This document shows positions 43,468 to 51,244 of a DNA stretch of 64,000 nt, piece after piece; position 1 is the stretch's first letter, and each line of letters opens with the position of its first letter. The notes beneath the pieces were generated by a model. The model saw only the letters and a program-made list of their open reading frames with translations. It had not been told where the DNA came from and ran no database searches. The stretch comes from Saprospiraceae bacterium (GTDB lineage Bacteria; Bacteroidota; Bacteroidia; Chitinophagales; Saprospiraceae): the NCBI GenBank assembly GCA_020631355.1, contig JAHDHL010000003.1, positions 186,001 through 250,000 on the forward strand. The letters are read 5' to 3'. The translations under genes were made by a program, and so were the position numbers.

Positions 43468-45642
43468 TTATTTTGAATTCAGATCCTTGATGAGTTGACG
43501 GACTTCCTGAACGGACATGATATTATACTTTGCAATCGTTTGTTGTAGACCTACCTTGAGGGTGTAGGCTGAATCGGGTAAAACCTTGAATATATCCTCA
43601 TCGGTTTGGTCATCACCTATGGCAATAATGAAATCCCAATCTGATTTCCTCAACCAACTGGCAGTAGCCTTGCCCTTATTGACTCCGGAATTCTTAATTT
43701 CCACTACCTTGTTACCCTCTAACACCTGTAAGTCCAGATTAGCGGTTAGATATTGGAGTACATCCCTATATTCCCTGATTCTCTTTTCACCCAAATCCTT
43801 ATCAATCTTACGATAATGCCACGCTAGGGAATAATCCTTTTCCTCGATGAAAGATCCGGGTGTTCGTTCTACCAAATCCTCAAGGATAGGTAGTACATCT
43901 ACTTTCCAACTCTTGAAAAGACTTCGACTGGCTTTCCATTTGTCATTCCGTTTCATCCAAACCCCATGTTCGGCAGCCATATCTATTCCTAGAGGGGATA
44001 ACCAAGTATCCAAGGTTTCCCTATCCCTTCCACTGATAACAACCAACTTATTCCGTTCATCGTTGTTGAGTTCGGATAATATTTCCATCAACTCATCATC
44101 GGGTTTGACTGCTTGTGGATCAGTATGGAAATCCATCAGGGTGCCATCATAATCCAGGATAATCAATCGATTGGTTGAAGTTCCATAATGATTCAACAAT
44201 GCTTCTCTTTGTTCGGAATCAACCTCAAGTGATTGTATATGTTTATTACTGAATTCAGTCATGATGATTTGTTCTTTGATGAATGTTTCGGCCCAATGAG
44301 AAACAGTATGTTTTCTCATTCGGGATTGCATGATGGATAGTCGATTGGCTTGGTCTTCCTCCGGCATTTCCAAGGCAATCAATAAGTTATTGATGACATC
44401 CTTGACATCATTCGGATTCACAATCAGGGCTTCTGTTAATTGGTCTGCAGCTCCTGCCATCTCACTCAGGATCAATACCCCTTTCTGGCTGGTTTCCTTG
44501 GACGCAATGAATTCCTTGGCAACCAAATTCATACCATCCCTAAGTGGTGTGATGAGTGCTATATCGGCAGCCTTGAACAAGGCCGTCAAATCCTCAAATG
44601 GAAAGGATCTGTAGAAATATTGAATGGGCTCCCAGTCAAAGGTGCCATAAGTCCCCACCAGACTACCTACCAATGTATCAATTTCGTTCTTCAGTTCCTG
44701 ATATTGGTCTACATTGGAACGGGATGGCACCACAATCATAGCCATCGTGACTTGGCCGATGTATTCAGGATATTCTTCCAGAAACTGGGCATATGCCTTA
44801 ATCCGTTCTGGAATCCCCTTGGTGTAATCCAATCGGTCAATGGAAAGAATGAGTTTTCTTCCATCTCTGATATAACGTTCAGGATGAATCTCCTTGCCTA
44901 GATATCTTTCCGGGTTTGCATATTTTTGGTAGTCAATTCCCATAGGGAATACATCCACATTTATGATTCTATTATCTACCGTAAGTTTTCCAAAATTGTG
45001 TTCGTGACCTGATATCCTGTAAACAGCACTTAGGAAGTGACGCATATAACCAAAGGTATGGAAGCCGATTTGGTCTGCGCCCAGTAACCCATCCAGAATA
45101 GGTTTTCTATAGGGCAATATCCTGAATACCTCATAACTTGGGAACGGAATATGTAGGAAAAATCCGATGGATACCTTGGGGTGTTGTTCTCTGATATAGG
45201 CTGGCAGTAACATCAGTTGATAATCGTGTACCCAGACGATATCTCCTTCTTCAATGATGTTATTGACCTCATCAGCAAACTTCTGATTCACCTCTTGGTA
45301 TACCAACCAGTATTGGTCATCATATGTCGCATATTCCGTGAAATAATGGAAAAGTGGCCAAATCACCTTATTGCTGAATCCCTCATAAAAGAGTTCGGTT
45401 TCATCCTGACTTAGGAAAACGGGAATGAGCCCCTGGCGTTCCAAGTCCTTTTGGATAGCGGGAATTTCCCATTCATCCTCGATTACTTTGCCTGGCCATC
45501 CTACCCATATCTTATCCATATCATCATCCAAGGACTTCAATCCTGTAGCTAAACCTCCTGCACTTGGGTGATAAAACAGTTCTCCATCTTTCCTATCTAT
45601 GGTCACAGGGAGTCTGTTGGATATGATAATCAGTTTCGGCAT
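43468..45642 (-). CDS. Bifunctional trehalose-6-phosphate synthase/phosphatase
   Basis: 724 residues with both enzymes in one chain. The N-terminal part (about residues 1-465) is a GT20 synthase (IIISNRLPV, GGLATGLKSL, VWVHDYQLMLLP, FFLHIPFPS, GVDRLDYTKG-like SIDRLDYTKGIPER). The C-terminal part (from about 490) is a HAD phosphatase: the DxDGT motif is at Asp497/Asp499 (DYDGTLMDF), then VISGRD, AAEHGVW and GDDQTDEDIF. It makes trehalose from UDP-glucose and glucose-6-phosphate in one polypeptide, an osmoprotectant. Fusions of this kind are known in Bacteroidota. Confidence 0.92.
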   Translation of the reverse strand: MPKLIIISNRLPVTIDRKDGELFYHPSAGGLATGLKSLDDDMDKIWVGWPGKVIEDEWEIPAIQKDLERQGLIPVFLSQDETELFYEGFSNKVIWPLFHYFTEYATYDDQYWLVYQEVNQKFADEVNNIIEEGDIVWVHDYQLMLLPAYIREQHPKVSIGFFLHIPFPSYEVFRILPYRKPILDGLLGADQIGFHTFGYMRHFLSAVYRISGHEHNFGKLTVDNRIINVDVFPMGIDYQKYANPERYLGKEIHPERYIRDGRKLILSIDRLDYTKGIPERIKAYAQFLEEYPEYIGQVTMAMIVVPSRSNVDQYQELKNEIDTLVGSLVGTYGTFDWEPIQYFYRSFPFEDLTALFKAADIALITPLRDGMNLVAKEFIASKETSQKGVLILSEMAGAADQLTEALIVNPNDVKDVINNLLIALEMPEEDQANRLSIMQSRMRKHTVSHWAETFIKEQIIMTEFSNKHIQSLEVDSEQREALLNHYGTSTNRLIILDYDGTLMDFHTDPQAVKPDDELMEILSELNNDERNKLVVISGRDRETLDTWLSPLGIDMAAEHGVWMKRNDKWKASRSLFKSWKVDVLPILEDLVERTPGSFIEEKDYSLAWHYRKIDKDLGEKRIREYRDVLQYLTANLDLQVLEGNKVVEIKNSGVNKGKATASWLRKSDWDFIIAIGDDQTDEDIFKVLPDSAYTLKVGLQQTIAKYNIMSVQEVRQLIKDLNSK

Positions 45643-45751: not shown

Positions 45752-45791
45752 ATCAAAAAGAAATAGGGGCAAATCCATTTCTGCCCCTATT
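45752..45791 (-). terminator. Terminator of the cysteine operon
   Basis: On the minus strand, 31 bp after the E1-rhodanese stop: arms 45791-45782 and 45771-45762 (core AATAGGGGCA), a 10-base loop, then a T-rich run (TTTCTTTTTG). Confidence 0.8.
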
Positions 45792-45822: not shown

Positions 45823-46953
45823 CTAATAAGTGGGAATATTCGTGTCTATTTCCTTGGCGTAGGCCAATATCCCTCCTTTCAGATTGTAAAGGTTGGAGAA
45901 AGGATAAAGTGCTTCCAATTCCCGGATGGCCGTTTCACTCCTTTTGCCACTCTTACAATGTACGATGACTTTCTTATCCCTAGGAATCCGCTCAACATGC
46001 TGGCTAATTGTTGAGAGAGGTATCAATTCCGCTCCGATATTGGCAATTTCAAATTCATGGGGTTCCCTTACATCTATGATATGGTAATCGTGACCTAAAT
46101 TCTGAAGTTTCTCCAATTCATGAACGGTTATTTCCTTGACTGCATCCTGTTCCTGATTCAATCCACAAAAAGATTCATAATCGATGAGTTCATTGATAAT
46201 AACTTCTTGTTGGGCATTGATTTTAAGCGTCCTTGTTTGGAAAGCGGCTACATCAAACAAGAATAATCTTCCTACCAAAGGCTCTCCGACTCCAGTAATG
46301 ACCTTAATGACTTCCGAAGCCTGTATACTACCTATGATTCCCGGCAATACTCCCAATACACCACCCTCTGCACAATTCGGTACCAATCCCGGTGGTGGCG
46401 GTTCCGGAAACATATGCCTATAATTAGGGCCTCTTGTTCCATCCTCATTCAAGTAATTAAAAACTGAAACCTGACCCTCAAACCTGAATATGGATGCATA
46501 TACATTCGTTTTTCCAGCCAGAACACAAGCATCATTCACCAGATATCTAGTCGGAAAGTTATCGGTACCATCTGCAACAATATCATAATCCGCAATGATA
46601 CTCAGTGCATTTTCTATTGTGAATGCCGTTTCGAACACCTTGATTTCAATGTGGGGATTCAAAGCTTGAAGTTTTAGCTTGGCTGTCTGGGCCTTGGATT
46701 TTCCAATGTCATCCACATTAAACAACACTTGTCTCTGCAAATTGGAATCATCGACAACATCAAAGTCCACAATTCCTATGTGTCCTACTCCGGCTGCGGC
46801 CAAATACAATAAAACAGGACTTCCCAATCCTCCGGAACCAATAACCAATACCTTGGCTTTCTTCAGTTTCTCTTGGCCCTGAACTCCAAATTCAGGTATG
46901 GTAATATGACGTGCATACCGTGCTAATTCTTCCTTGGATAATAAGTTCGACAT
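45823..46953 (-). CDS. ThiF/MoeB-family E1 adenylyltransferase with C-terminal rhodanese domain
   Basis: 376 residues. The E1 part has the ATP-binding GSGGLGSPVLLYLAAAGVG, the Mg-binding ADGTDNFPTRY (Asp130 region) and Cys194 in VPNCAEGGVLGVLPG. I see no Zn-binding CxxC pairs of classical MoeB. The C-terminal rhodanese has the active-site loop HCKSGKRSE (Cys333). Proteins of this build (MoeZ/MOCS3-like) adenylate the C-terminal Gly of a small beta-grasp carrier and transfer sulfur to it. Last gene of the cysteine operon, 20 bp after the carrier gene; a likely partner of that carrier and perhaps of ThiS. Confidence 0.88.
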   Translation of the reverse strand: MSNLLSKEELARYARHITIPEFGVQGQEKLKKAKVLVIGSGGLGSPVLLYLAAAGVGHIGIVDFDVVDDSNLQRQVLFNVDDIGKSKAQTAKLKLQALNPHIEIKVFETAFTIENALSIIADYDIVADGTDNFPTRYLVNDACVLAGKTNVYASIFRFEGQVSVFNYLNEDGTRGPNYRHMFPEPPPPGLVPNCAEGGVLGVLPGIIGSIQASEVIKVITGVGEPLVGRLFLFDVAAFQTRTLKINAQQEVIINELIDYESFCGLNQEQDAVKEITVHELEKLQNLGHDYHIIDVREPHEFEIANIGAELIPLSTISQHVERIPRDKKVIVHCKSGKRSETAIRELEALYPFSNLYNLKGGILAYAKEIDTNIPTY

Positions 46954-46973: not shown

Positions 46974-47270
46974 TTAATTAAATGGTGTTTCCAGGCCTCC
47001 TGCAATCGCAGGTACAATACTCAGTATCTCATGCTCTCCCAAGGATGTTTTCTCCTGTTCAAGTGCAGAAATATCTTCCTCGCCAACAAATAAACGAATG
47101 AAAGACCGAATCCTACCCTCATCATCCAATAGATGTTGTCTAAGTTTTGGATGCTGATTTGTCAAATCATTTAAGGCAGCCGAGACTGAGTTCGCTTGCG
47201 TAAGTACTGTCGAGGAATTATCCGTGAATTTCCTCAAAGGTGATGGAATTATAATCTTTGCCATTTTCAA
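46974..47270 (-). CDS. MoaD/ThiS-family sulfur carrier, CysO-like, with masked C-terminus
   Basis: 98 residues, a beta-grasp fold with IIPSPLRKF and DLTNQHPKL near the N-terminus and HEILSIVPAIAGG near the end. The functional Gly-Gly is at residues 91-92 but is followed by six more residues (LETPFN). Carriers of the HcyS/QbsE type also end beyond GG and are trimmed by a JAMM protease before thiocarboxylation. It sits between a tRNA-Cys and an E1-rhodanese gene and near cysM and a JAMM gene, so a CysO-like role in cysteine synthesis is inferred. An alternative start is 47264. Confidence 0.85.
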   Translation of the reverse strand: MKMAKIIIPSPLRKFTDNSSTVLTQANSVSAALNDLTNQHPKLRQHLLDDEGRIRSFIRLFVGEEDISALEQEKTSLGEHEILSIVPAIAGGLETPFN

Positions 47271-47369: not shown

Positions 47370-47810
47370 CTAGTATGTCAATGCTGATGCATCCACCCAT
47401 ACTTTTTCTTCTTGGAACACCCTTTTGTCCTCCTTTAATTTCCATGATTTCACATCATCAGCCAAGCCGTCCCTAACAGAAACGATTACATATGAGAAGT
47501 AAGGCATGGCTACGGCCAAATCATGGCTAGAAGCTATTGCAGGATGATTGGGGTGGGAATGGTATATGCCTAAAAGCTGTATATCATTCTCTATGGCATA
47601 TTGTTCTGCCTTGATATAATCCAAAGCTGAGATTTCGAATCTTCTACTTTGGTCACCCGCCTTAGCATTTTCAACAGGAATAGCCTTTTGGATATATCGA
47701 CTTCCGTTTTCCTTTCCGTATAGAAAACCACACCCTTCATTCGGAAATACCTGTTCTAAGTGTTGGTGCATTGCTTCCAAGGATTCTACTGACATGATTA
47801 TTTCTGACAT
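47370..47810 (-). CDS. JAMM/MPN+ metalloprotease (Mec/HcyD-like)
   Basis: 146 residues. The JAMM metal motif is intact: Glu25 (PNEGCGFL), then His84-x-His86-P (GIYHSHPNHP) and Ser94-x-x-Asp97 (ASSHDLA). Homologues next to sulfur-carrier genes either cleave cysteine from a CysO-cysteine adduct (Mec in Mycobacterium) or remove residues after the carrier's Gly-Gly (HcyD, QbsD). Both roles are possible here because the carrier has a six-residue tail. It follows cysM by 8 bp. Confidence 0.9.
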   Translation of the reverse strand: MSEIIMSVESLEAMHQHLEQVFPNEGCGFLYGKENGSRYIQKAIPVENAKAGDQSRRFEISALDYIKAEQYAIENDIQLLGIYHSHPNHPAIASSHDLAVAMPYFSYVIVSVRDGLADDVKSWKLKEDKRVFQEEKVWVDASALTY

Positions 47811-47818
47811 ACTATATG

Positions 47819-48757
47819 TTATTTGAAAATTGATTGAATGATTTCTGAATATTTGGAGGCATCATCAGCTAAAGTGGTTACAATGACACCCTGCTCTATC
47901 TGTTCCGCCACCTGTATGGCCCCCGCAATACTTGCAGCTGCTGATGGACTCAAAATCAAGCCCTCTTTTTTTGCAACTCGTTTTATGATTTGGTATGCTT
48001 CCAAGGTATCCACAACATTTTTCTGGTCTGCTAGATGGCTATCATAAATTCCAGGAACCAAAGCAGTTTCCAAATGTTTCCATCCCTCTAGGCCATGCAT
48101 GGGTTGTTGGGGTTGTAGGGAAATCAGTTGGATATCTGGTTTTAATTCTTTAAGTCTCTTACCTGTTCCTACAAATGTCCCTGTTGTTCCCAAAGCGTTC
48201 ACGAAATGGGTAATCCTCCCTTGGGTTTGTTGGAATATCTCATCCCCAGTACCATTCTCATAATGGGCTTTCCAATTATATTCGTTAGCATATTGATTGG
48301 CATAGAAATAGGATTGAGGATTACTTTCTGCCATCATTCTGGCAATTAGTTGAGCTCCATCCGTTCCTTCAAACTTAGAGGTCAGCACCAATTCCGCACC
48401 TAGTGCTTTCAACAATTGCTTTCTTTCCTTGGAAGCATTCTCAGGCAAGGCCAACTTAACCTTAATACCCAAGGCGGCCCCTATCGAAGCATAAGCAATA
48501 CCTGTATTCCCACTTGTTGCGTCAAGGAGTGTTTTCTCATGATCCAATTGATGATTCAGAATCGCATTCTTAATAATATTGAATGCCGGCCGAGCTTTCA
48601 CGCTACCTCCGAATTGTTGCCATTCCAATTTGGCAAGTATCCTTACTCCCTTTTTCCTGTAGATTCTATCCAAAGGGAACAAGGGGGTATTACCTATCTG
48701 AAGTGAAAGCTTCTGAAGACGAATGAGACCCGATTTTGGTATGGTTAAAGATGTCAT
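47819..48757 (-). CDS. cysM: Cysteine synthase, CysM type (PLP-dependent)
   Basis: 312 residues, fold type II. The PLP lysine is in GGSVKARPAFN, the phosphate-binding loop in DATSGNTGIAYASIGAALGI, and the substrate loop in NALGTTGTFVGTGKRLK. The MHGLEGWKHLETA block occurs in many CysM proteins that sit beside JAMM and MoaD-like genes. It would make cysteine from an activated serine (acetyl- or phosphoserine) and a sulfur donor, here probably the thiocarboxylated carrier. First structural gene after the two attenuators. The start ATG at 48757 lies 24 bp after the second terminator. Confidence 0.88.
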   Translation of the reverse strand: MTSLTIPKSGLIRLQKLSLQIGNTPLFPLDRIYRKKGVRILAKLEWQQFGGSVKARPAFNIIKNAILNHQLDHEKTLLDATSGNTGIAYASIGAALGIKVKLALPENASKERKQLLKALGAELVLTSKFEGTDGAQLIARMMAESNPQSYFYANQYANEYNWKAHYENGTGDEIFQQTQGRITHFVNALGTTGTFVGTGKRLKELKPDIQLISLQPQQPMHGLEGWKHLETALVPGIYDSHLADQKNVVDTLEAYQIIKRVAKKEGLILSPSAAASIAGAIQVAEQIEQGVIVTTLADDASKYSEIIQSIFK

Positions 48758-48780
48758 TTGAATATTTTATAAGATGTTAG

Positions 48781-48822
48781 AAAATGAAAAAGCGCCTTTC
48801 CAATTCATTTGGAAAGGCGCTT
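48781..48822 (-). terminator. Attenuator terminator 2 with competing antiterminator
   Basis: On the minus strand, arms AAGCGCCTTTCCAA (48822-48809) and TTGGAAAGGCGCTT (48803-48790) form a 14-bp stem with a 5-base loop, then TTTTTCATTTT-type tail. The 5' arm can instead pair with TTTGGAAAAGG in leader ORF 2 (48872-48862, one bulged A). That segment and the following GTAGCAAG can in turn pair with the cysteine-codon region (CTTGCT, 48909-48904; TACC and TTCC, 48887-48879). These are the 3:4, 2:3 and 1:2 pairings of a classical attenuator. Confidence 0.9.
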
Positions 48823-48847
48823 GTAGTCAAGAATCTCAGAATCTATA

Positions 48848-48931
48848 CTATAGCTTGCTACCCTTTTCCAAATCAATGGGAATGGTACAACAACAAGGAC
48901 AACAGCAAGTATTTTGATTCTTATTTTTCAT
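48848..48931 (-). CDS. Cysteine-rich leader peptide 2
   Basis: A 27-codon ORF too short for the usual ORF track. It begins MKNKNQNT and residues 9-15 read CCCPCCC (TGC TGT TGT CCT TGT TGT TGT); the rest ends EKGSKL-TAG. Six of seven consecutive codons are cysteine. It lies between two terminators and upstream of cysM, so it is a sensor rather than a functional product: shortage of Cys-tRNA should stall the ribosome over the 1:2 pairing region, freeing the antiterminator. No Shine-Dalgarno site is visible, as usual in this phylum. Confidence 0.85.
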   Translation of the reverse strand: MKNKNQNTCCCPCCCTIPIDLEKGSKL

Positions 48932-48950
48932 TATATCGTATATGCTTTCT

Positions 48951-48992
48951 AAAACGAAAAGGCGCCTCTCCAAGTTCATTTGGAGAGGCGCC
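48951..48992 (-). terminator. Attenuator terminator 1 with competing antiterminator
   Basis: On the minus strand, arms GGCGCCTCTCCAA (48992-48980) and TTGGAGAGGCGCC (48973-48961), loop 6, then TTTTCGTTTT. Within the leader transcript TGGAGAG (49033-49027) can pair with CTCTCCA of the terminator's 5' arm (48987-48981), preventing termination. TGGAGAG can also pair with CTCTCATC (49046-49039), which directly follows the four Cys codons. A small perfect hairpin (TTTGTC/GACAAA, 49015-49002) lies between, which would bring regions 2 and 3 together. Confidence 0.9.
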
Positions 48993-49033
48993 TCTTAGGT
49001 CTTTGTCAAGACAAATATGCAGCTTACTCTCCA

Positions 49034-49084
49034 TCAAGGATGAGAGCAACAACAACAAATGATATTTGACAAATTTCTATACAT
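49034..49084 (-). CDS. Cysteine-rich leader peptide 1
   Basis: A 16-residue ORF, MYRNLSNIICCCCSHP, with four consecutive Cys codons (TGT TGT TGT TGC) and a TGA stop. The ATG is 19 bp after the -7 box of a good promoter, so it is the first ORF of the transcript. The Cys codons sit immediately before region 1 of the attenuator structure and the stop codon falls in the 1:2 hairpin loop, exactly the layout of ribosome-sensed attenuators. An overlapping ORF from 49110 in another frame has only scattered Cys codons and was not chosen. Confidence 0.85.
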   Translation of the reverse strand: MYRNLSNIICCCCSHP

Positions 49085-49103
49085 CTTGGATAATTGTATG
49101 AAA

Positions 49104-49134
49104 CAAACATAGTTTCCTTTTTTTATAAAAGCAA
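49104..49134 (-). promoter_or_regulatory. Promoter of the cysteine leader/operon
   Basis: On the minus strand TTG (49134-49132), a 20-bp spacer and TATGTTTG (49111-49104) match the Bacteroidota TTTG / TAnnTTTG consensus. Transcription would begin about 10 bases before leader peptide 1. No other good promoter is seen between here and cysM. Confidence 0.75.
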
Positions 49135-49159
49135 TAGTTTAGCATAAATTTTAACACTT

Positions 49160-51244
49160 TTACAAATTTCGATTCAGTTCTATCCATGTCCCATTTCCCA
49201 TTGAAATCAAACTGAGCGAGCTGTTGGTATTCGAGGTGAATCCACTGCTTAGATTGATATAGACTCCATCTAATACACTCACACCTGATTGATTGAAAAT
49301 CAAGTGGATAACCGTTCCTTTCGGAAAACGGTTTGGAGAAGACTGATTGATTCTGTGTATATCAGTTGTACCTGTCAAAAAGAATGTGTTTCCCTCCAAT
49401 GGCAGTACGATAAAATTCGAATTATTATTAAAATCCGATGAACCTTGTGTCAATGTTCCAGTGATAATTCCTCCAGAAGAAGTAATCGGCTTAGCTGATA
49501 ATTTCACGGATTCCATTCCAAAATTCAATGTAGGTGTGGTTATATAAACCTCTAAATTGGCTCCTGTATTATTATTGATTTCCAGTCGGGTGTCCAAAAT
49601 TGTGGAAGTATTTACTAAATTAGCCGTACTTACGAAATGCCATTCACCATCGCCAGGATGACTTTGGGATACTGTTACACCATTAGGAGAATTAGTCCTG
49701 ATATAGGCAACTCCAGGTGTTGAAATTCTGACGTGCATACCTGCATTGACCTGCTGATAAATACCCAAATCCTTTATCTCGGGAATTTGTGGTACCGAGG
49801 GTTCCAAATTGGCAATAATCCCACTAGGTATCGTTAATTTCAATACGTTATGTTCAGGTAATAATTCAGGAGATTGAATCTCTGCCATCACACCAGCACC
49901 AGTAATATCCCAAAAAGGTAAGTTGGCTCCGTCAAATCCATAAAAGGTTGAATTCTCATACAAGTTGTCCTCAGCATTCCTGAAAAGGGCTGCTTTTCCT
50001 GAGCGGAATGCTACATAATTATTGCCTTTGTCCACGGTCAAACCACCTGCATATGTACCCTCAATTCTGGAATTCTTGGTATTTGTTTTCATCAGTACCA
50101 AAGGCCTGTCAGCTGGTTGTCCATTGCCCTCAATCCTGATATCCTCGCATTGAATTTCCCCCTCGTTCACTACGATATGTCCATATGTCGTTTCGTATGG
50201 TTCCATGATTGTTCCGTAAAACTGATTATTATTCCCACCATCGACAAGTAGGCAATAGTCATATCCTCCACCGGATATGGCACCATGATGGAATACATTC
50301 GAATTCGTGAATGATGGTCCGTCTTCTGTAATGTGCACACCTATTTTTGCATTTCGAATCCTTACATTATAGAATGTTGCATAAGCTATTCCTCCGGCAT
50401 TGATACTTTCCAATTTAAGGGCGGTACCTGCTGTAAAATCAAACAGTAACAAATTATTCAAACGAATACTTTCCACTAACTCTCCATCTGCCTTTACATG
50501 TATAGCACCGTCTGCCGAGCCAGTTGGTATATCCTTGATGACCATATCCCTCACTCCCGAAGTATGTCCACTGATTTCAATAGCATAACCTGAAGTACCA
50601 TGATATCTTATTGCCGAACCATTGTATTGTCCCGATAAAGGACTGGATCCCACTCCCTCCCCTACCAAAGTAACACCATCAGGAATCACCAAAGTTGAGG
50701 TAATCTTATAATTACCCACCGGTACAAAAACTTTTCTTCCCATTGCCGTTGCTGCCACCAAAGCATCATTAAATGCTTGTGTATCGTCTGTACTATCATC
50801 TCCGACAGCACCATAGTCCTTGACGTTGATGCCAAAACTGTGCTCTAGTGATTTGGTCTTCTCAGCATACATGGCCTTGGGTACAGATAACAATTCCGTA
50901 GTTCCCATATCCGTATACGAGGAACCGCCATTCTCATCTACCTCTACCTTAATGTAGGTCGAAGCACTCCAATCAATCGTATTGAAAGTACCAGAAACTA
51001 CAGTTCCATTACCCACCGTAATGTTGATGACACCATAATCATTGGATAAGGTTGTTTGGGTTTCCTGATAAACGGTTGTTCCTGTAATACTCCCCTGAAT
51101 CAAAGTGAATCTCAGTCCGATATTCTGATTGGTAATCACATTACCCGAATTATCACGGATAACGGCTTGGTAACTGAATCCGGTTTGAGCCAAAAGATTC
51201 ATTGACATCAATACAAAAATGGAAACGAAAAGAAAGATTCTCAT
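49160..51244 (-). CDS. Secreted pectate-lyase-like beta-helix protein
   Basis: About 694 residues from the ATG at 51244, which gives a clean signal peptide (MRIFLFVSIFVLMSMNLLAQ) directly after the upstream stop; the frame extends 6 residues further. The N-terminal 120 residues (FSYQAVIRDNSGNVIT, TELLSVPKAMYAE) are the leading domain common in Bacteroidota secreted proteins. Then comes a Pectate_lyase_3-type right-handed beta-helix from VKDYGAVGDDSTDDTQAFN with GNYKITSTLVIPDGVTLVGE. The tail is beta-rich, with no sorting domain recognised. It may bind or cleave polysaccharide; the catalytic residues are not identified. Confidence 0.75.
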   Translation of the reverse strand: MRIFLFVSIFVLMSMNLLAQTGFSYQAVIRDNSGNVITNQNIGLRFTLIQGSITGTTVYQETQTTLSNDYGVINITVGNGTVVSGTFNTIDWSASTYIKVEVDENGGSSYTDMGTTELLSVPKAMYAEKTKSLEHSFGINVKDYGAVGDDSTDDTQAFNDALVAATAMGRKVFVPVGNYKITSTLVIPDGVTLVGEGVGSSPLSGQYNGSAIRYHGTSGYAIEISGHTSGVRDMVIKDIPTGSADGAIHVKADGELVESIRLNNLLLFDFTAGTALKLESINAGGIAYATFYNVRIRNAKIGVHITEDGPSFTNSNVFHHGAISGGGYDYCLLVDGGNNNQFYGTIMEPYETTYGHIVVNEGEIQCEDIRIEGNGQPADRPLVLMKTNTKNSRIEGTYAGGLTVDKGNNYVAFRSGKAALFRNAEDNLYENSTFYGFDGANLPFWDITGAGVMAEIQSPELLPEHNVLKLTIPSGIIANLEPSVPQIPEIKDLGIYQQVNAGMHVRISTPGVAYIRTNSPNGVTVSQSHPGDGEWHFVSTANLVNTSTILDTRLEINNNTGANLEVYITTPTLNFGMESVKLSAKPITSSGGIITGTLTQGSSDFNNNSNFIVLPLEGNTFFLTGTTDIHRINQSSPNRFPKGTVIHLIFNQSGVSVLDGVYINLSSGFTSNTNSSLSLISMGNGTWIELNRNL

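Follow-up and report, generated by a model that had tools for sequence, protein, structure and literature searches.

The leader region of a cysM operon in a Saprospiraceae bacterium holds two short open reading frames (ORFs) with runs of cysteine codons, each followed by a hairpin, and raises the question of whether one operon can be governed by two serial attenuators that read the same amino acid. Classical ribosome-mediated attenuators control the his, leu and trp operons. The region shares with them an amino-acid-rich leader ORF, an intrinsic terminator and a mutually exclusive antiterminator, and it differs from them in that cysteine is the amino acid apparently sensed and in that two complete units stand in series. 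An earlier note on this DNA, made from the sequence alone, had proposed tandem ribosome-mediated attenuation sensing cysteine. Here we analyse this region in the window (the whole 64,000-nt stretch of DNA) together with its counterparts in related genomes. We conclude that a single transcript very probably carries two classical ribosome-mediated attenuators one after the other, each of them responding to charged tRNA-Cys; the leaders, the terminators, their conservation and a predicted pairing that depends on ribosome position all support the proposal.

Architecture of the leader region and operon

On the minus strand, a promoter motif is followed by leader 1, terminator T1, leader 2, terminator T2 and cysM, which starts at 48757 (Table 1). 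Both short ORFs translate as the earlier note stated, leader 2 with the run CCCPCCC. The note had also placed a promoter 5′ of the leaders, and a TTG-N20-TATGTTTG motif, with a spacing of 20 nt between its elements, indeed lies there (49134–49104); the motif is of the type used in Bacteroidota, a phylum to which a sigma-70 promoter scan is unsuited. The predicted −7 box starts 27 nt 5′ of the leader-1 ATG, so a short 5′ UTR is expected; mycobacterial poly-Cys leader ORFs are reportedly leaderless (Canestrari 2020). In attenuator 1, region 2 lies directly 3′ of the leader-1 stop codon; in attenuator 2 it lies inside the leader-2 ORF, 14 nt past the last Cys codon. A comparison of positions 48700–49300 with Rfam gave eight matches, none of which reached the gathering score.

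Behind T2, Pfam gives PALP, Prok-JAB, ThiS and ThiF plus rhodanese domains together, a set that makes up the CysO-thiocarboxylate pathway of cysteine synthesis and that agrees with the thiocarboxylate-type cysteine operon described before. The ThiS-like protein ends in AGGLETPFN; the residues past the GG would have to be removed before activation, a task that may fall to the adjacent JAMM peptidase.

Table 1 Features of the leader region and downstream operon in the window
Feature	Position	Strand	Basis
−33 element TTG, putative Bacteroidota-type promoter	49132..49134	-	read from sequence
Predicted −7 element TATGTTTG (TAnnTTTG)	49104..49111	-	read from sequence
Leader 1 ORF, MYRNLSNIICCCCSHP then stop	49034..49084	-	translation
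Leader 1, four Cys codons	49046..49057	-	sequence
Attenuator 1 region 1, CTCTC, overlapping last Cys and Ser codons	49042..49046	-	sequence, fold
Attenuator 1 region 2, TGGAGAG, complementary to 48987–48981	49027..49033	-	antiterminator fold
Terminator hairpin T1 (5′ arm 48995–48980, 3′ arm 48973–48958)	48958..48995	-	fold
T1 T-rich tail	48957–48951	-	sequence
Leader 2 ORF, MKNKNQNTCCCPCCCTIPIDLEKGSKL then stop	48848..48931	-	translation
Leader 2, six Cys codons (CCCPCCC)	48887..48907	-	sequence
Attenuator 2 region 2, TTTGGAAAAGG, complementary to 48817–48808	48862..48872	-	antiterminator fold
Terminator hairpin T2	48790..48822	-	terminator scan, fold
T2 T-rich tail	48789–48781	-	sequence
cysM-like cysteine synthase (PALP)	47819..48757	-	Pfam
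JAMM peptidase (Prok-JAB, Mec+-like)	47370..47810	-	Pfam
ThiS-family sulfur carrier (CysO-like)	46974..47270	-	Pfam
ThiF and rhodanese (MoeZ-like) activating enzyme	45823..46953	-	Pfam
Terminator-like hairpin, operon end	45762..45791	-	terminator scan
Fused trehalose-phosphate synthase and phosphatase gene, 3′ of operon	43468–45642		Pfam

Folding of the two putative attenuators

The proposed terminators, each with a 5′ arm able to pair instead with region 2, are borne out by folding. T1 has a predicted stability of −31.1 kcal/mol (z −7.7) and T2 of −22.8 kcal/mol (z −7.9; −23.1 in the cross-pairing comparison below), and for neither was any of 200 shuffles equally stable. Antiterminator 1 (49034..48980) folds at −18.4 kcal/mol (z −3.1), a value equalled by 1 of 200 shuffles, and antiterminator 2 (48875..48807) at −17.8 kcal/mol (z −2.1), equalled by 6 of 200. 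Terminators and antiterminators would compete for the 5′ arms of T1 and T2, as the mutually exclusive folding of both leaders requires. When the RNA is cut back from its 5′ end to 14 nt beyond the first base of the stop codon, antiterminator 1 drops to −7.0 and antiterminator 2 to −1.1 kcal/mol. On the assumption that roughly 13 nt are protected downstream of the ribosomal A site, a ribosome with the last Cys codon of leader 1 in its A site frees region 2, and one at the stop codon covers it; in leader 2, the same stop-codon position would hide region 2 in part.

T1 and T2 of the window are near copies of each other, and the 3′ arm of T1, once freed, has the complementarity to bind the 5′ arm of T2 (−21.7 kcal/mol, against −23.1 for T2 itself). 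We considered cross-talk that would couple the two switches and rejected it: across the 35 tandem loci described below, pairing is −10.2 within loci and −9.4 between them (p = 0.23), and T1 and T2 of one locus resemble each other no more than those of different loci do (p = 0.50). As cross-pairing is not stronger within loci, cross-talk is no general mechanism.

Conservation of leaders and terminators

To survey cysM loci, we took CysM relatives from the family of the window (33 of 150 genomes at 1e-60), from its order (58 of 298 at 1e-80), from the phylum (40 of 395 at 1e-80) and from named genome contigs (the best 80 of 521). After removal of loci with less than 45% identity, with less than 450 nt upstream or with identical last 250 nt upstream, 164 of 201 loci were kept. 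The earlier note had named loss of the Cys runs from retained operons as the observation that would tell against its reading; poly-Cys leaders and terminators instead recur upstream of cysM in relatives. A strict definition (ATG start, at most 45 amino acids, at least three consecutive Cys) finds a Cys-run micro-ORF in 118 of the 164 loci, with a terminator behind it in 105 and two such units in 32, and all three counts are zero in one dinucleotide shuffle per locus. Runs of other amino acids occur in at most 11 of the 164 loci each, except for Leu (40 loci with a micro-ORF, 30 with a terminator, 2 with two units), an exception most simply explained by shifted-frame reading of TGYTGY. The Cys runs mix codons (TGT 611, TGC 208), a mixture that points to conservation of the amino acid and not of a nucleotide string.

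By a wider criterion, 35 of the 164 loci are tandem, 75 are single and 54 lack a leader–terminator pair, the last comprising 14 with a leader whose terminator went undetected and 40 without any leader by the criteria used. At least four of these 40 (L015, L114, L225 and L227) have a poly-Cys ORF just beyond the length or distance limits, and among the 14, L120, L122, L123 and L125 have terminator-like imperfect stems followed by TTTTTT that the simple scan missed. One genome, G040, has a peroxiredoxin gene preceding cysM, and there the leader sits before that peroxiredoxin (L011, L283).

Terminators scoring at least 12 are present in 119 of the 164 loci, as against 6 in shuffles. Together with the z values below −7 of both window terminators, this abundance argues against incidental hairpins in a system governed by Rho-dependent termination or translation, as proposed in mycobacteria, an account to which we give almost no credence, even though six f44 loci (L112, L113, L115, L116, L117 and L119) lend it some support. 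Their leaders end in CCCCCCS or CCCS directly before the stop codon and are followed by a hairpin-like repeat, in several cases with no clear U-tract; judging from these sequences, the mechanism in f44 may differ and involve Rho or translation.

Predicted dependence of antitermination on ribosome position

Ribosome-mediated attenuation demands that a stalled ribosome, and no other state, favour the antiterminator. For 145 leader–terminator pairs from 111 loci, with 20 shuffles per pair, we computed the fraction of the terminator 5′ arm that is engaged by upstream RNA as long as the 3′ arm is still to be transcribed, using a ribosome mask that disregards any RNA 5′ of the ribosome. A ribosome on the first Cys codon gives a fraction of 0.61 against 0.42 in shuffles (p about 1e-17), and on the last Cys codon it is 0.64 against 0.43 (p about 1e-19), p-values that are descriptive because the loci are related and independence is overstated. 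The fraction is 0.39 against 0.40 with no ribosome and 0.15 against 0.14 with the ribosome at the stop codon. Stalled states alone exceed the controls, which is the pattern demanded by ribosome-mediated attenuation; by folding prediction, the antiterminator would exclude the terminator and would depend on where the ribosome stands. The further claim that region 2 pairs with region 1 has less behind it than the note suggested: adding the leader lowers arm pairing from 0.61 to 0.39 in real sequences and from 0.42 to 0.40 in shuffled ones, but the protector hairpins of the window on their own fold at the level of shuffles, with z about 0 (−0.26 and +0.29).

Region 2 is also matched to its own terminator. 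Ranked among the regions of all loci, the own region 2 reaches a mean percentile of 0.755 against its own arm and falls in the top tenth in 55 of 145 pairs, a high rank indicating that arm and region 2 change together; the pairing averages −11.2 kcal/mol, compared with −7.35 for shuffled and −8.25 for cross-locus combinations. Taken one by one, 44 of the 145 pairs score above every one of the 20 shuffles made from them. Leader 2 of the window has a value of 0.34 with the ribosome on its first Cys codon, reached by 14 of 20 shuffles, and of 0.75 with the ribosome on the third Cys codon of the first run.

Evidence for a single transcript

Serial action requires both units to lie on one RNA. The 110 nt that precede leader 1 contain a full promoter motif in 20 of the 35 tandem loci, where shuffles predict 0.4, and the stretch between T1 and leader 2 contains one in none of the 35 (1452 nt in total, a shorter stretch, with 0.1 expected). 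A single −7-like box lies between the units, in L006, which has none before leader 1, as compared with 1.6 expected across the 35 loci. Of the 75 single loci, 7 have the full motif, against 0.75 expected, and 30 have the −7 box, against 6 expected; the motif is thus an incomplete detector. On these promoter motifs, the two units probably share one transcript.

The same data bear on the idea that one attenuator alone acts on cysM, the other being a relic or part of a separate transcript, with a second promoter in between. The preponderance of single loci would fit this idea, as would the L006 box and the 15 of 35 tandem loci without a recognised full promoter motif before leader 1. Set against these are the absence of the full motif between the units in all 35 tandem loci, the recurrence of the tandem layout at sulfite reductase genes (see below) and the fact that both antiterminators of the window fold better than most shuffles. 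We regard a lone working attenuator as very unlikely and proceed with two units in series.

A model for serial attenuation

In the proposed mechanism, plentiful cysteine would let the ribosome pass the Cys codons and reach the stop codon, where it would mask region 2, so that the terminator hairpin (3:4) forms. When cysteine is short, the ribosome would halt on the Cys codons and mask region 1, and the free region 2 would capture the terminator 5′ arm, allowing RNA polymerase to read on. Readthrough would be needed at T1 and then again at T2 before cysM, JAMM, ThiS and ThiF/rhodanese are transcribed. Provided that the leaders are translated, that termination occurs in vivo and that both units respond to cysteine, two serial readthrough steps would multiply down the leakage at plentiful cysteine and multiply up the dynamic range.

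Ribosome-mediated attenuation, cysteine attenuators and tandem attenuators are each known, and it is the same-input tandem form and its recurrence that appear to be new. The following comparisons draw on excerpted texts of the reports cited. The mgtCBR leader RNA of Salmonella likewise carries two leader ORFs, which have separate attenuation responses (Lee and Groisman 2012, PMC3641672), and resembles the window with its two leader–terminator units in series. The mgtCBR leaders, however, sense different signals, ATP and proline, and were termed a singular example (PMC3641672), whereas in the window both leaders have Cys runs, and their arrangement is found again in many genomes and at two kinds of operon. 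In Rhodobacterales, uORFC-8-2 before cysS combines two adjacent Cys codons with an intrinsic terminator, and attenuation was predicted (PMC8632094); that system is alphaproteobacterial, and no doubling is mentioned for it in the excerpt, whereas the first gene of the window is a PALP gene and its unit is doubled. Short Cys-run ORFs also precede cys operons or cbs in Mycobacterium, Propionibacterium and Bifidobacterium (PMC1262725). The window resembles these actinobacterial leaders in its ORFs and additionally has terminator hairpins, of which no conserved ones were described for the mycobacterial leaders (PMC1262725).

The rimP leader of several Gammaproteobacteria has a second, tandem terminator, one of the two with a potential antiterminator (PMC2965389); its two serial terminators recall the window, although the excerpt mentions no amino-acid leader ORF for rimP, and the word stem Bacteroid- does not occur in the text of PMC2965389. 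Within Bacteroidota, to which the window also belongs, clues of leader peptides before amino-acid operons led to suspected attenuation in Flavobacterium psychrophilum (PMC9723704), the excerpt naming neither cysteine attenuation nor a tandem layout, and there are general hints of leader peptides in Bacteroides (PMC7366714). In the open PubMed Central library, with sources taken as excerpts, we found no cysteine attenuators in Bacteroidota and no same-amino-acid tandem attenuators.

Distribution of tandem and single forms

By the wider criterion, the tandem form occurs at 16 of 31 cysM loci in the family of the window and at 4 of 15 in f12 of the same order. It is found in 10 of 17 records named Saprospiraceae, in 3 of 10 named Chitinophagaceae, in one named Flavobacteriales and in one named Bacteroidia. 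Single units are spread over many families, including records named Flammeovirgaceae, Splendidivirgaceae, Reichenbachiellaceae, Microscillaceae and Cyclobacteriaceae. The phylum search beyond the order of the window, with 36 loci, yielded no tandem units, 5 single ones, 14 leaders without a detected terminator and 17 loci with none; there the unit is recurrent and far from universal. One Chitinophagaceae-labelled metagenome-assembled genome carries cysM at two loci (L203 and L251), both times behind tandem short CCC leaders.

On a FastTree CysM tree from which rows without a leader were left out, a minimum of 14 changes is needed to explain the tandem state, a count inflated by missed terminators (L005, L016 and L019 were scored single despite two leaders or two terminators), and we therefore draw no history of gains and losses. 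The leaders themselves are more informative. Median lengths are 24 amino acids for leader 2, 26 for single leaders and 17 for leader 1, and the residues after the last Cys pair number 9, 12 and 4, respectively; average Cys content is 5.66 in leader 2 and 4.54 in leader 1 (p = 0.0005). Leader 2 thus resembles single leaders and leader 1 does not, so that attenuator 1 is probably the one that was added. If the model is true, these loci hold a recurrent Bacteroidota cysteine sensor built solely of micro-ORFs and hairpins, and its natural single and double versions allow a clean test of whether same-input serial attenuators yield a multiplied range, a threshold or a graded response.

Predicted attenuators at other cysteine and histidine genes

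We searched the genome of the window for further units with 4-Cys and 5-Cys patterns, examining 30 of 50 places and 24 of 24 places, respectively. Among these there is one further convincing unit, the leader MNTIECTSIHSTCCCCCTTVQQWKGV and its terminator (L047:1465-1656, G000:C66), 110 nt before a gene for an AhpC-TSA/1-cysPrx_C peroxiredoxin. Similar leaders precede peroxiredoxin homologues in other genomes (L283 and L284, with two in L284). They are not general: of 30 homologue loci, only L259 (that of the window's genome), L283 and L284 have a leader with at least three consecutive Cys followed by a terminator. A 5-Cys search of 20 relatives, in which 30 loci and 20 chosen regions were examined among the matches listed, found, apart from those at cysM, tandem units before sulfite reductase in G072 and G102, a unit in G033 before a PAPS reductase gene starting 522 nt downstream and a unit in G074 before a RimK-type ATP-grasp gene. 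At L309:1468-1551, a poly-Cys leader and terminator precede a RimK-like ATP-grasp ligase gene; at a guess, this ligase is possibly an enzyme of thiol compounds.

Several candidates were unconvincing: L085, in the genome of the window, has a weak hairpin 138 nt past the ORF; L295/L314 has a non-ATG start, a terminator that overlaps the ORF end and no gene found behind it; L300, with the leader MCMCCCCMCMMSG before a gene presumed to be MetY-like, has a weak hairpin; and L322, a poly-Cys ORF before a PAPS-reductase-like gene, has no terminator that we could find. The poly-TGY stretch G033:C156 (L328) yielded no leader.

Sulfite reductase is encoded in 53 of the 150 family genomes; the genome of the window has none at 1e-60. 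Of 30 sulfite reductase loci of the family (L339–L368), 23 are preceded by one or more units, 14 of them by two. We consider it reasonably likely that Bacteroidota have a phylum-wide cysteine attenuation regulon that includes the CysM/thiocarboxylate operon, sulfite reductase, PAPS reductase and peroxiredoxin, and that Saprospiraceae and some other Chitinophagales have turned its attenuators, by doubling, into serial switches with a common input whose regulatory range is squared. Such a predicted regulon would tie a peroxiredoxin to sulfur assimilation and to the thiocarboxylate route, and many of its micro-ORFs are likely to be missed by ordinary gene finding.

Sensing by the nascent peptide has been proposed for Cys-containing regulatory upstream ORFs of other bacteria. 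Here, poly-Cys peptides might stall chemically on a metal, persulfide or oxidant rather than for want of charged tRNA-Cys, as Cys runs of up to 11 codons (in the sulfite reductase leader of L363) and the poly-Cys leaders before peroxiredoxin genes could indicate. Residues beyond the Cys run are highly variable, however, antiterminator pairing is predicted to depend on ribosome position, and among the genes behind the leaders are those that a role in cysteine supply would call for: cysM and the genes for sulfite reductase and PAPS reductase. In the same family, moreover, his operons show an analogous design with His codons. On balance, peptide sensing is highly improbable, and tRNA-Cys charging remains our reading of these leaders.

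The his operons also provide a comparison for the tandem form. One common criterion was applied to all three gene sets, with 3 of 30 hisG loci dropped for contig ends and 2 of 30 sulfite reductase loci for having less than 450 nt upstream. Attenuation is then seen at 19 of 27 hisG loci (2 tandem; at least two terminators in 5 of 27), compared with 22 of 28 sulfite reductase loci (14 tandem; p = 0.001 against his) and 26 of 31 family cysM loci (14 tandem; p = 0.004 against his). Tandem units thus make up 14 of 22 and 14 of 26 attenuated loci at sulfite reductase and cysM and 2 of 19 at hisG, and are favoured at, though not exclusive to, cysteine genes. Upstream of hisG in L371 and L392 there are tandem poly-His leaders with a terminator after each, so the same-input tandem form extends beyond cysteine.
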